Assembly (NCBI GenBank): GCA_947177135.1
Contig: CAMWTI010000003.1
Location: forward strand, 1-55,977
Length of the DNA stretch: 55,977 bases
DNA from: an uncultured Porphyromonadaceae bacterium
GTDB taxonomy: Bacteria; Bacteroidota; Bacteroidia; Bacteroidales; Muribaculaceae
Direction: 5' to 3'
The notes beneath the pieces are model-generated. The model did not search any database, was not told where the DNA came from, and worked only from the letters and a program-made list of their open reading frames with translations. A program made the translations under genes and the position numbers. Shown one piece after another: positions 30,557 through 35,752 of the stretch (positions are counted from its first letter, which is position 1; every line of letters starts with the position of its first letter).

Positions 30557-31483
30557 ATGATTGAATCGGTATCCTTGCAAGAGATGCGGCGGCTGCATGA
30601 AATCGCCAACTATTCCGGGAAACGCTCGGAAATGGACTATGTATACGTCCATGTGACTCCCGGCGGAGATGTCGACGCGGCCAGAGAATTGCAGCGAGCC
30701 ATCCGGTTCAACGGCATGATCATCACTCTGGTAGTGGGCGGACAGATGAACCTCACCGTCAATATGGAATACTATAAACTGCGCCGCAACTCCATGTTTG
30801 TGGCCGGCCCGAATTCCATAATCAACGTCGACTATGAATCAATCAAGGATCTGGAAGCCTACGTGCTGTTTGTCTCTACTGACTTTCTCCGCGACCTCAA
30901 TTTCGAGATCGTGGTGCTCAATTCCATACCGCTGGGCATGAAGTCCGGACCATGCACCATGCTCACCGAGATGGAAGTAAAGATGCTTTCGTCATATCTG
31001 GACCTGCTTGACGCCAACGCGCGCCACAACGAAATCCAAGGCGACAAGCATCTGGTCAAGAGCATATCGCGCACACTTCTCACGGCAACCTTCTATCAGA
31101 TCATGGTCATCGGCATGAAACGTCGCTCCGAAGCCGAAGATGAAGCCGCCCATAAGCCTCGCAGCCGGCGAATGATCTATACCCATGAATTCGTGAGACT
31201 TGTGCGAAAACATTTCAGATATGAGCGCTCGGTGGCCTTCTATGCCGGAAAACTATGCATGTCGGCTAAATACCTGTCGCTGGTCGTAAAAGACTGCACC
31301 GGCCACTCGGCCGCAGAGATCATTGACGACCACGTGATTCTCGAAGCGAAGAATCTGCTCCGGTTTTCGGGCAAAAACATCCAGCAGGTGGCATATGAAC
31401 TTAATTTTTCCAACCAGTCGTCTTTTGGAAAATACTTCAAGCACCTGACCGGAATGTCGCCCAGCGAATTCCAGAACTCCTGA
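30557..31483 (+). CDS. AraC-family transcriptional regulator
   Basis: C-terminal RSVAFYAGKLCMSAKYLSLVVKDCTGHSAAEIIDDHVILEAKNLLRFSGKNIQQVAYELNFSNQSSFGKYFKHLTGMSPSEFQ. Confidence 0.93.
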   Translation: MIESVSLQEMRRLHEIANYSGKRSEMDYVYVHVTPGGDVDAARELQRAIRFNGMIITLVVGGQMNLTVNMEYYKLRRNSMFVAGPNSIINVDYESIKDLEAYVLFVSTDFLRDLNFEIVVLNSIPLGMKSGPCTMLTEMEVKMLSSYLDLLDANARHNEIQGDKHLVKSISRTLLTATFYQIMVIGMKRRSEAEDEAAHKPRSRRMIYTHEFVRLVRKHFRYERSVAFYAGKLCMSAKYLSLVVKDCTGHSAAEIIDDHVILEAKNLLRFSGKNIQQVAYELNFSNQSSFGKYFKHLTGMSPSEFQNS

Positions 31484-31620: not shown

Positions 31621-31651
31621 TTGTAATTTAAGAAAATAATTGCGACCTTTG
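31621..31651 (+). promoter_or_regulatory. Candidate promoter for a non-coding transcript/long leader
   Basis: TTG (31621-31623), 20-nt spacer, GACCTTTG (one mismatch to TAnnTTTG). Confidence 0.5.
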
Positions 31652-31654
31652 CAC

Positions 31655-31975
31655 TATCAGTAATTTTTGTTGTCTAAACAACGAGTTATTGATTGTTAAC
31701 ATATTAAAGCGTTTATCAGCGCTAATTCTTGTTCGCTTGAAATCTGGCAGTTTCATATTCTGAATCAAGAATGACGCAACGATGGATGCCTATGTGGATA
31801 TGCATATTATCCGATTCTAAAACCGCTCTGCATGTAAGGGAACGGTTCTGGAATCAGGTTGATATATCATATCGGCGTGGGGCCTCTGCGTTGCTCGTTC
31901 TATTCAGAAGGGTATTTGCCAGAGCCTCAAGCGTAGGAACGAGTGACCGATATAGACTTCCACGCTTTTTATTTT
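31655..31975 (+). ncRNA. Candidate structured RNA or long 5' leader of unknown class ending in a terminator-like stem
   Basis: GATTC/GAATC+AACCG/CGGTT (31813-31855), CTCGTTC/GAACGAG (31894-31900/31937-31943), GCGTGG/CCACGC + TTTTTATTTT (31875-31880/31960-31975); no convincing protein. Confidence 0.45.
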
Positions 31976-32022
31976 ATCCTTCGGCCTGATAGGGAGTACG
32001 GGCATTCGAGCTAATATATAGT

Positions 32023-32355
32023 ATGTCTAATGTCACCGATATACACATAGGAAAGGAAATACGTCGTGTCGTTGAAGAACGGGGCATCTCAATGAAGAAA
32101 TTTGCGGACTTACTATGCTGTGAGCGCAATTCATTATATTATATGTTTTCGCAGCCAAGCATCGATATAAAACGACTGCTAAGGATTTCAAATATTCTCC
32201 ATTATGATTTCTTATCGTTATATACCTATGAAAATCAGCTGCATTCCATCGAAAATGATTTCCTTGGCATTGTAAGATTGCCAATTTCGGCTAAAGCCGA
32301 TTTTATGACTCAATACCCGACTGCTACAATCGTAGACTTAACAGCCTGCAAATAA
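32023..32355 (+). CDS. Small helix-turn-helix (XRE-like) regulator
   Basis: GKEIRRVVEERGISMKKFADLLCCERNSLYYMFSQPSIDIKRLLRISNIL HTH. Confidence 0.8.
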   Translation: MSNVTDIHIGKEIRRVVEERGISMKKFADLLCCERNSLYYMFSQPSIDIKRLLRISNILHYDFLSLYTYENQLHSIENDFLGIVRLPISAKADFMTQYPTATIVDLTACK

Positions 32356-32474: not shown

Positions 32475-32918
32475 ATGGAAAAAGCAAAGCAAATCAGCCT
32501 GATGATGCTGATGTCTCTGATCGCATTATGCAGTTTTACTTCCTGCAGCGGAGATGATGATGATATCATCTCTGATCCCGCAAGTAAGATCACAGGCACA
32601 TATGTGGGCACCGGCTCACTGCTGTATCTCGGCATTCCGGTTGAATCGTATCTGGGCATGAAATTTGTCATTACCAAAAGTTCAAATGAATATGTATTAG
32701 TGACTCCACGGACTGCCGACGGAGAAGACTTCTTCGGACGTCCGAGTGTTTATCAGATCACGCAGACAGCCCGTGGCGGCTATTCACTTCGCAGTGACAA
32801 TTCTCCGAATATCACTCTTGAAATTTCAAAGGGCGGAAGTCTGACATATACCAATCCCAATGTCTCTGTCGGTGGTGATTCGGGATATACACTTACCTTC
32901 ACCGGAGATAAAGAATAA
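32475..32918 (+). CDS. Hypothetical small lipoprotein
   Basis: MEKAKQISLMMLMSLIALCSFTSCSGDDDD lipobox. Confidence 0.7.
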   Translation: MEKAKQISLMMLMSLIALCSFTSCSGDDDDIISDPASKITGTYVGTGSLLYLGIPVESYLGMKFVITKSSNEYVLVTPRTADGEDFFGRPSVYQITQTARGGYSLRSDNSPNITLEISKGGSLTYTNPNVSVGGDSGYTLTFTGDKE

Positions 32919-32939: not shown

Positions 32940-32976
32940 AAACAGGTAGACGACTAAATTTGTTGTCTACCTGTTT
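32940..32976. repeat. 15-bp stem hairpin (one G-U) 10 nt upstream of the M6 peptidase start
   Basis: AAACAGGTAGACGAC-taaattt-GTTGTCTACCTGTTT. Confidence 0.85.
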
Positions 32977-32986
32977 CAGCTATATT

Positions 32987-35752
32987 ATGAGAACGCTTTC
33001 TGTAATTTTCTCGATATTGGGATTGATTTGCGGCGTAAAAAACGCTGGAGCGGTAATCGCCATGCCCGAAATGTTGCAATATGCACAACCCGGAGTAAAG
33101 TCCGTTTCTGTCCGTTTGTTTGGTGATGAGAAATATCATTGGTACACGACTTCCGATGGATATCCACTTGTCCGAGATGGAGAATTCCTTTATTTTGCAA
33201 CAGAAGATAATCGCGGAAACATTGTTAAGTCAGAGTATTTGGCCTGCGACGAAATTGAAAGAACTGATGCCGTGTCAGCTTTTCTGTCAGCTCTGGACAA
33301 GGAGGCTCTTGCATCAAAACTTATAGAGCGTCAGGAAAAACTATATGAACGCAAGCGGAAAGCGACTCTGAAATCCGTTCATAACGACAACTTCGGATTG
33401 CTTGCGAATGCCACATATCCCCGATGGGGCAATCAGCGGGCGTTGGTGATCCTTGTCGAGTTCACGGATGTGAAATTTAAAGAAGGATACTATCCCTTGG
33501 ACTACTTCACTCGTTTATTGAATGAACCCGGTTTTTCCGATTCCGGGGCAACGGGGTCGGCTAAGGATTATTTTGTCGATAATTCCAACGGAGCTTTTGA
33601 TCCTGATTTCGATGTAGTCGGGCCGGTAACGGTGCCTCATAATATGGCCTATTATGGAGGTAACGACAAATACGGTAGTGACAGTCGTCCGGCCGAGATG
33701 ATAATCGACGCTTGTCGTCTTGTTGAAGACCAGGTTGATTTTACTGAATATGACCGTGATGAAGACGGTGTCATAGATAATATCTTTGTCTTTTATGCCG
33801 GACGAGGCGAAGCCTCTGGAGGAAGCGCTGACTCAATATGGCCTCATGCTTGGGACATCAGGGAATATGGCTCAGGTAATTACATATTTGACGGCAAACG
33901 TCTTGGCCACTATGCGTGCACGAATGAGCGCACGTCAGCCGGGATAGACGGCATAGGAACTTTTGTTCATGAATTTTCTCATGTGCTCGGATTGCCAGAC
34001 TTGTATTCGACAGAATATACGAAAGCATTTACACCGGGAGAATATTCTGTAATGGACAAGGGATCATATCTGAATAATAGCCGCACTCCACCGAATTATT
34101 CTGCCTTCGAAAGATATGCACTCGGATGGCTGTCGCCGGAAATAATAGGCGGCAAACAGTCAGTTGAACTTGGAGTGATATCAGAAAATGAGGCCAGAAT
34201 CATCAGGACAAATAACCCAGACGAAATATTCTTTATAGAGAACCGTCAGCCAAAAGACTGGGACAGGTATCTGCCTGGACATGGCATGCTTGTGTGGCAC
34301 GTGGAATATCTTGAGTCGCGATGGTCGAGCAATACCGTAAATACCAGCTTATTAAAACAGCATGTCGACATAGTGGAAGCTGATAACATACAGACAGAAC
34401 AGTCACGTTCGGGCGACACATTCCCTGGCACAGACAATGTGACACAGTTGTCAGAGGCATCGCACAAGACTATGACCCCCTACACCGGCCAGCATCTAAA
34501 TTTGCCGATTGTCGATATTAGGGAACAGGCCGGTGTGGTTTCTTTCATGGTAGCCCCGAACGGTATCGAGGTGTGCGCTCCTGACTCGGTCATGGTCAAG
34601 CAAAAGACAACCACGGGACTGACAATAACATGGAAAGGGAACAGTGCTAAATATCTGGTCACATTGAATAACCTATGTTATGAAGTATCGGACACGGTAT
34701 TTTCGATTGATGGATTGACTCCGGATAAAGAATATATCATCCGCGTTTATGGCATTGATGGCGATCAGCTCAGCACACCTTCGGCCTCACTTCAAATAAG
34801 AACCGGAGATGAATTCCATCCGGAAAAGTTCGGTCCTGTCGCAGTTGAATATTTAGGCCAGAATATATATCGATTAAGCTGGTGTGAGCTACCCGATGTA
34901 GACAATGTTATCGTGGACATTTATACAAAAGAATACGGAGAACCCTTAAAGACAGTTAACCACATGTCAGAGCAATCTCAATGGGAGAGTGAAGGATGGT
35001 CAGTAGAACCAGTGATACCATCTAAGTCAGACGGCTGTTTCGGCGAGTCAAGTCCATCGTTGATATTTTTTACCCTGGGTGGCCGGATTGAGTCTCCGAT
35101 ATTTTTTGATAAGATAAAAGCTGTTGAATATTGGTGCAAGGGAACGGTAAGCATAAATGCAGCACCTATTATCATGACCGAGGGACTGACCGATTCCGGC
35201 ACATGGGAAACTGTCGACAAAAGACAGATCAGACCCGACAGTATCGGCACGAATGTCGTCCTTGCGATGGACCGGAGCGACATAGTGGCAGTTCGTCTTA
35301 ACATTGAATGTCCGGAACGCAGCCGGTGTTATGTTGATGATGTGGCTGTACATCACGGACAACACATTGAAAATGTCTCGGTCGCGGGATTTCCCAAAGC
35401 AATAGGCCCTTCCGATTCATTTACATACACGGTCAATGATTCAAAAGACTATTATTGCCAGATATGGGGAGAAAAAGATGGTCTTGAAACCGAACGCACC
35501 GCTGAGCGACTTATAAACGATGCAGCTATCAGCATGACGGAATTGAAAAATGACCCGATCAACATAAGTATAGCTGATCAAGGCATCATTGTTACGTCAA
35601 GACAGCAAGAGGTCATTTCTATATATGATCTATCAGGTAAACAGATGGTCCGAAACGTTCAAAATGCTGGAAGCAAACTCTATTATCAGCTGCCTCATGG
35701 ACTGTATATAGTCGTTTCCCAAGGCTCTACGATGAAAATCCTTCTACAATAA
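32987..35752 (+). CDS. Secreted M6-family (immune inhibitor A-like) metalloprotease with fibronectin-type and C-terminal sorting-like regions
   Basis: HEFSHVLGLPDLYS zinc motif, GEYSVMDKGSY; C-terminal ISIYDLSGKQMVRN...LPHGLYIVVSQGSTMKILLQ; ATG 32987. Confidence 0.92.
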   Translation: MRTLSVIFSILGLICGVKNAGAVIAMPEMLQYAQPGVKSVSVRLFGDEKYHWYTTSDGYPLVRDGEFLYFATEDNRGNIVKSEYLACDEIERTDAVSAFLSALDKEALASKLIERQEKLYERKRKATLKSVHNDNFGLLANATYPRWGNQRALVILVEFTDVKFKEGYYPLDYFTRLLNEPGFSDSGATGSAKDYFVDNSNGAFDPDFDVVGPVTVPHNMAYYGGNDKYGSDSRPAEMIIDACRLVEDQVDFTEYDRDEDGVIDNIFVFYAGRGEASGGSADSIWPHAWDIREYGSGNYIFDGKRLGHYACTNERTSAGIDGIGTFVHEFSHVLGLPDLYSTEYTKAFTPGEYSVMDKGSYLNNSRTPPNYSAFERYALGWLSPEIIGGKQSVELGVISENEARIIRTNNPDEIFFIENRQPKDWDRYLPGHGMLVWHVEYLESRWSSNTVNTSLLKQHVDIVEADNIQTEQSRSGDTFPGTDNVTQLSEASHKTMTPYTGQHLNLPIVDIREQAGVVSFMVAPNGIEVCAPDSVMVKQKTTTGLTITWKGNSAKYLVTLNNLCYEVSDTVFSIDGLTPDKEYIIRVYGIDGDQLSTPSASLQIRTGDEFHPEKFGPVAVEYLGQNIYRLSWCELPDVDNVIVDIYTKEYGEPLKTVNHMSEQSQWESEGWSVEPVIPSKSDGCFGESSPSLIFFTLGGRIESPIFFDKIKAVEYWCKGTVSINAAPIIMTEGLTDSGTWETVDKRQIRPDSIGTNVVLAMDRSDIVAVRLNIECPERSRCYVDDVAVHHGQHIENVSVAGFPKAIGPSDSFTYTVNDSKDYYCQIWGEKDGLETERTAERLINDAAISMTELKNDPINISIADQGIIVTSRQQEVISIYDLSGKQMVRNVQNAGSKLYYQLPHGLYIVVSQGSTMKILLQ

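Follow-up and report, generated by a model that had tools for sequence, protein, structure and literature searches.

A structured leader upstream of a small HTH gene as a probable member of an uncatalogued family of cis-regulatory RNA switches in Bacteroidota

A long intergenic region rich in stems does not by itself reveal whether it works as RNA, and, if so, whether that RNA acts alone or on the gene behind it. Such a region is found in the window analyzed here, a 55,977-nt stretch of DNA from an uncultured Porphyromonadaceae bacterium, where it is flanked by an AraC-family gene (30557–31483) and a 110-amino-acid small HTH gene (32023–32355). A sequence-only reading had described it as a highly structured region upstream of an HTH gene that it could not assign to a known class, and had offered either a stand-alone RNA, possibly 6S-like, or a terminator/antiterminator leader. 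Is the structure real and conserved? Does it belong to the downstream gene? What could it do there? The region from 31652 to 31998 probably serves as the 5′ leader of the HTH message, and it probably belongs to a family of cis-regulatory RNA switches that spans the Bacteroidota and has not been catalogued; comparison supports its structure, position and exclusive pairings, while switching itself is inferred. The order of parts is promoter, a folded RNA of about 320 nt with a terminal U-run, a Shine-Dalgarno (SD) site and the HTH start codon at 32023 (Table 1).

The elements picked out by eye in the window are all present: the promoter-like TTG-N20-GACCTTTG, the two-part helix GATTCTAAAACCG/CGGTTCTGGAATC, CTCGTTC/GAACGAG, which lies within the longer GTTGCTCGTTC/GGAACGAGTGAC, and GCGTGG/CCACGC followed by TTTTTATTTT before the HTH start, the U-run being 47 nt 5′ of the HTH ATG. 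The folding energy of 31656–31976 is −121.4 kcal/mol against a mean of −78.7 for shuffled sequences (z −8.5; 0/100 shuffles), far beyond chance, as the description of the region as highly structured would have it. A conserved upstream ORF, the 72-codon frame at 31771–31989, is not supported, because homologues preserve base pairs rather than codons, with many short indels. The lack of a known class was also borne out: a cmscan of the window copy against all 4227 families of Rfam 15 gave no match that reached the gathering threshold; when E values as high as 10 were admitted, just two chance matches appeared, far below their cut-offs. Likewise, 20 long-form loci and 16 further, mostly compact, loci (see below) gave no Rfam match over the leader.

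Table 1. Features of the leader and its surroundings in the window (z values from the cognate-pairing test).
Feature	Position	Strand	Partner or remark
Bacteroidota-type promoter	31621–31651	+	−33 TTG (31621–31623), N20, −7 box GACCTTTG (31644–31651)
5′ hairpin ATCAGTAAT:GTTATTGAT	31656–31693	+	replaces P0 pseudoknot domain of most Muribaculaceae copies
P1 5′ strand AAAGCG	31706–31711	+	partner CGCTTT 31963–31968, using part of U-run
P2 5′ strand TATC	31714–31717	+	partner GATA 31949–31952; z −8.2
P4 hairpin TTCTTG (31726–31731):CAAGAA (31766–31771)	31726–31771	+	early-forming alternative to H3/H5
H3 5′ strand CGCTTG	31734–31739	+	partner CAAGCG 31928–31933
hp1 GAAATCTGGCAGTTTC	31739–31754	+	loop strand TCTGGCA (31743–31749) with TGCCAGA (31917–31923) forms H4
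H5 5′ strand TTCTGAAT	31758–31765	+	partner ATTCAGAA 31902–31909
Antiterminator 5′ strand GCAAC (31776–31780) + GATGCC (31785–31790)	31776–31790	+	partners GGCGTG (31874–31879), GTTGC (31890–31894)
Variable hairpin domain (GGATA/TATCC; GATTCTAAAACCG/CGGTTCTGGAATC, 31813–31825/31843–31855)	31796–31868	+	z −9.8
Terminator 5′ strand GCGTGGGG	31875–31882	+	stem GCGTGRG:CYCACGC; z −10.7 (Muribaculaceae)
P7 hairpin GTTGCTCGTTC (31890–31900):GGAACGAGTGAC (31936–31947)	31890–31947	+	encloses H5b, hp2 (31911–31926), H3b
Anti-SD/terminator 3′ strand GACTTCCACGC (31955–31965) + U-run TTTTTATTTT (31966–31975)	31955–31975	+	
SD-like GGGAGT	31992–31997	+	pairs across U-run with GACTTCC (31955–31961)
Presumed regulated gene, 110-aa small HTH protein	32023–32355	+	weak HTH_3 match

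The leader is not confined to this locus. Four copies, and one more cut by a contig end, are present in the window's own genome, and homologues were found by blastn in 29 of 61 genomes. A covariance model (R1) detected the RNA in 141 of 147 genomes of Muribaculaceae, the family of the window, covering all 26 genera, and in the wider order in 66 of 247; copy number ranged from 1 to 15 per genome in seven genomes that were searched more fully. Carriers revealed by an exact pattern scan include the isolates Paraprevotella clara YIT 11840 and Bacteroides mediterraneensis, and 56 of the 58 exact-pattern loci were confirmed by the covariance model. Weaker matches in other families represent a compact form, about 165 nt long, that lacks the 5′ domain. 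A second covariance model (R2), built from these compact-form loci, found it in 34 of 297 genomes of the phylum and 46 of 117 genomes of the order, with up to 22 matches in one order genome; over both forms, a genome holds from 1 to 22 or more copies. The window copy itself matches R2 (54.7 bits, E 1e-8). Compact-form matches also occur on plasmids, two of Chryseobacterium (Chryseobacterium shandongense) and one of Rhizosphaericola (Rhizosphaericola mali). Plasmids searched for the window copy gave no match, viral contigs scanned by exact pattern gave none, and blastn against phages gave a single partial match of 52 nt.

Conservation of the structure was examined in two ways. Covariation was evaluated by a self-written test that resembles R-scape but is not R-scape, in which Fitch-counted substitutions are re-thrown on a FastTree tree and pairs are scored by an APC-corrected G statistic. 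With the tree thus controlled, 143 long copies gave 9 pairs with E<0.05, in H3 and H4, and 89 compact copies gave 12 pairs on the model alignment and 13 on a sequence-only alignment; nearly all of these pairs are canonical, with as many as four pair types at one position; the extra pair of the sequence-only set (columns 96:148) is 76% canonical and was given no weight. The other test compares the cognate partners of each helix with permuted partners, keeping composition, without control of phylogeny and with control segments run alongside. In compact copies H3, H4, H5, P4, the outer and inner antiterminator, P7 and the terminator have z values from −8.5 to −38.7, compared with +0.1 and −1.0 for the control segments. 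In Muribaculaceae copies, cognate pairing supports H3, H4, H5, P1, P2, P4, P7, the terminator and the variable hairpin, the last of which is shrunken or missing in compact members.

H3 covaries significantly with all pair types (z −48.9 in Muribaculaceae), H5 reaches z −41.7 in Muribaculaceae and −35.3 in compact copies, and H4 has 4 pairs with E<0.05 in Muribaculaceae and 6 in compact copies, where it is canonical in 89/89. We read H4 as a kissing-loop helix, and the conserved core of H3, loop-loop H4 and H5 as a four-way junction H3/hp1/H5/hp2 with hp1 and hp2 as putative kissing arms. Around this core, cognate pairing is specific for P7 (z −17.2 in Muribaculaceae and −10.3 in compact copies), P4 (−16.1 and −14.7) and P1 (−10.4 and −3.4), and for the P0 pseudoknot domain (GACCG..CGGTC / TATCG..CGATA) in 134 copies (0/5000 permutations). 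Compensation can be seen directly in P2, where columns 78:298 are CG in 61 and TA in 53 copies, and in the terminator stem, where columns 229:308 are GC in 61 and AT in 61. The antiterminator is cognate-specific in compact copies (z −8.5 outer, −9.9 inner); in Muribaculaceae its strands are nearly invariant, so that covariation is uninformative there. Pairing of the anti-SD with the SD is also cognate-specific (z −5.5 in 80 copies and −10.4 in 89 compact copies; 0/5000 permutations each). Thus the main stems are kept and covary in relatives, with a sole exception: the crossing pair ATATCGG:CCGATAT, from which two exclusive folds or a pseudoknot had been envisaged, exists in this copy, yet over the 143 copies compared its cognate partners match no better than non-cognate ones (z +3.0). 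On the gene strand, 816 G-U pairs stand against 178 A-C mismatches, which is not expected of a DNA palindrome and indicates selection on the RNA of one strand.

How is the RNA placed relative to genes? The promoter motif TAnnTTTG lies 5′ of 129 of the 149 long copies, mostly at −16/−15 from the start of the RNA model, compared with 3.5% of control windows. An ORF starts 25–110 nt 3′ of 85% of long copies (12% on the reverse side, 27% at random) and of 63% of compact copies (5% and 23%), and the distance from the RNA to the start codon is near-fixed, with a median of 53 nt. The RNA thus holds a fixed position between promoter and start codon, as a cis leader would. The terminator 3′ strand pairs with the SD beyond the U-run, which a stand-alone RNA would have no cause to preserve, and therefore the RNA is a cis leader rather than a stand-alone 6S-like RNA. 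In two loci from another class of the phylum (L195 and L196), the next gene is a SusC/TonB-receptor-like ORF about 220 nt downstream, compared with roughly 50 nt in Bacteroidales. Divergent pairs of leaders 0.6–5 kb apart were also noticed: G031:C13 178501(−)/183697(+), G144:C51 3642(−)/8031(+) and G020:C11 1252721(−)/1253661(+).

The conserved helices of the leader fall into two folds. P7 with the terminator and the antiterminator are mutually exclusive because both need the same middle strand; conserved helices that exclude each other, one of them ending at the U-run as in an attenuator, are found in the compact form and partly in Muribaculaceae. In the nested fold, GCAAC..GATGCC captures GGCGTG..GTTGC as an antiterminator hairpin, and P1 joins AAAGCG to the first part of the U-run; GACTTCC, thereby freed, becomes available to the SD of the gene. 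In the alternative fold, P4 and P7 form, and the GCGTGG:CCACGC stem (GCGTGRG:CYCACGC-U7 in the family) stands immediately before the U-run. A nested energy model favors the antiterminator fold over the terminator fold by about 12 kcal/mol, and therefore any switch must be co-transcriptional or ligand-driven. The stable antiterminator fold allows read-through, but its anti-SD is unpaired and may mask the SD. Choice between the folds would lead to premature termination, to a change in SD access or to both, turning the downstream gene up or down, and may be set by a signal (metabolite, protein or physical) through stabilization or blocking of the H3/H4/H5 core. The main role of the terminator-like stem may be in translational control, by freeing the SD, more than in halting transcription.

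What genes would be controlled in this way? In a sample weighted to high-scoring copies, and by raw class counts, the first genes behind 142 leaders include 17 BspA-type LRR proteins, and a separate clustering divided 144 downstream proteins into 96 clusters, including ten LPP20-like lipoproteins (named by eye) and four small HTH proteins. Outer-membrane proteins also occur, and PADLOC models match DndC, SspB, type III Mod, an EcoRI-type methyltransferase, HKD-Snf2 helicases, a DrmD-like helicase and JukA behind leaders. Placement upstream of an HTH gene thus holds for the window, whose HTH protein belongs to a family shared with the genes behind three other leaders (L081, L085 and L118), but is not a family trait, HTH being one of about 96 gene kinds. 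A tie between the leader family and one gene family was considered and rejected for most families: in most of those tested, two leaders that precede the same kind of gene resemble each other no more than two that precede different kinds. BspA leaders are slightly more alike (0.678 vs 0.642) and those of three two-member gene families clearly so (0.83–0.85). Leader similarity is mostly independent of the gene family, and therefore the module appears swappable and re-used; the leader would be a portable control module redeployed ahead of many unrelated accessory genes. Several small products deserve mention. A 99-amino-acid Cys-rich protein behind one leader (L012:1155–1451, minus strand) has an RR motif and repeated Cys-rich units and resembles a ribosomal-peptide precursor. 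Tiny unannotated proteins of about 80–100 amino acids lie directly behind seven leaders (L027, L020, L050, L014, L068, L016 and L019); some pairs of them belong to the same family, and they are candidates for unknown accessory systems.

Do these observations fit other explanations equally well? An independent small RNA of about 320 nt, be it 6S-like or trans-acting, that ends at the U-run next to an incidental gene would account for the promoter, the U-run terminator and the strong fold. Nevertheless it is highly unlikely, as start codons follow at a near-fixed distance (85% vs 27% at random), cognate-specific pairing spans the U-run into the SD of the mRNA, many gene-oriented copies are found per genome, and neither a 6S nor any other Rfam model matches over the element. 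The same near-fixed distance and SD pairing, together with the conserved exclusive helices, speak for the other option of the sequence-only reading, the terminator/antiterminator leader. Function at the DNA level, as a MITE, a recombination or insertion site or a mobile promoter cassette whose folding is a by-product of palindromic DNA, is suggested by the resemblance of the AAAGCG..CGCTTT ends to terminal inverted repeats, by weak additional matches of the model to the opposite strand of a few copies, by the many copies at contig ends and by leader similarity that is mostly independent of the downstream gene family. This too is very unlikely: orientation and spacing to the gene are fixed rather than independent of strand, the ratio of G-U to A-C (816 to 178) is far from strand-symmetric pairing, four pair types occur in long-range internal helices, and the element has mutually exclusive helices and SD pairing. 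The module as a whole may nevertheless be mobile.

Two further explanations are sub-cases of the preferred reading, a cis-regulatory leader switch, and differ in the signal. If it is a small molecule, the leader would be a metabolite riboswitch with the H3/H4/H5 core as the putative ligand pocket, a possible but doubtful case: an elaborate core under strong conservation, its kissing loops, an expression platform and the narrow spacing of promoter, leader and gene would suit it, but H3 and H5 are conserved in pairing and not in sequence, and the regulated genes have no obvious common pathway, a diversity that argues against one metabolite. If it is a protein, the leader would be a recruitment site, like ops, EAR and put, for a processive antitermination factor of the NusG-paralogue/UpxY or LoaP type, which would help RNA polymerase and ribosomes to traverse accessory operons gained by horizontal transfer. 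Surface-protein and phage-defense genes (DndC, SspB, Mod, HKD-Snf2, JukA) are typical accessory cargo, and both terminator and antiterminator arms exist. However, many downstream units resemble small single genes, and the core greatly exceeds ops in size and includes an arm that sequesters the SD, so that we regard such a site as rather unlikely.

Compared with known systems, the leader shares with attenuators and riboswitch expression platforms the exclusive antiterminator and terminator helices before a U-run and gene start, and the promoter directly upstream; it differs in having no Rfam match, an anti-SD helix reaching the SD beyond the U-run, and unrelated accessory genes. The cobalamin riboswitch (RF00174) and other kissing-loop riboswitches are, like the leader, multi-copy in Bacteroidota, with a loop-loop junction and control of SD access; they differ in sequence, architecture and genes, and cmscan with all 4227 Rfam families gave no match over the leader. 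Like the leader, ops/JUMPstart (RF01707), EAR and put precede accessory surface operons, but no Rfam sequence or structure match connects them. DUF805 RNA (RF03081) is also a cis-element of Bacteroidota, but is a separate 68-nt motif that does not match the leader; in one compact-form locus (L180), two DUF805 RNAs occur at 880–945 and 1844–1912, the first 37 nt past the leader, forming tandem cis-elements. The character of a long imperfect hairpin is shared with 6S RNA and 6S-Flavo RNA (RF01685), a motif of Bacteroidetes (PMC2864571), whereas the leader matches neither model, is multi-copy and is linked in cis to genes. A large list of structured-RNA candidates from the human microbiome, including terminator-like motifs of Bacteroidetes of 27–219 bp, has been published (Fremin and Bhatt, 2021; PMC8040213), and fragments of the leader family may be among its candidates; its main text describes no such family. 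The literature searched on Muribaculaceae or Bacteroidales leaders yielded none of this kind.

A structured regulatory leader is thus a known kind of element, and it is the family, its phylum-wide reach and its mixed surface and defense cargo that appear new. We tentatively suggest, as a serious possibility, that it is a phylum-wide orphan riboregulator, a portable promoter-switch-SD module that places surface proteins, lipoproteins, small transcription factors and anti-phage defense under one shared signal. If so, a regulatory RNA that ranks among the more common ones in the gut phylum Bacteroidota has been absent from Rfam, and it would explain possible joint control of genes for BspA-type surface proteins, lipoproteins, outer-membrane proteins, DNA phosphorothioation, restriction and JukA. 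The defined core, the two exclusive folds and the SD-masking helix provide a testable handle, and the signal, once found, would reveal what these bacteria use to time the expression of surface and defense genes.

Other features of the window may be recorded here. A TPP riboswitch (RF00059, 67 bits) lies at 209–303 on the plus strand, just 3′ of a tRNA at 1–70. Behind the HTH gene, an unassigned ORF for a 147-amino-acid lipoprotein-like protein (32475–32918) precedes, two genes past HTH, the gene for a large Immune inhibitor A-type (M6) peptidase with an fn3 domain and a T9SS-like tail (32960–35752, plus strand).
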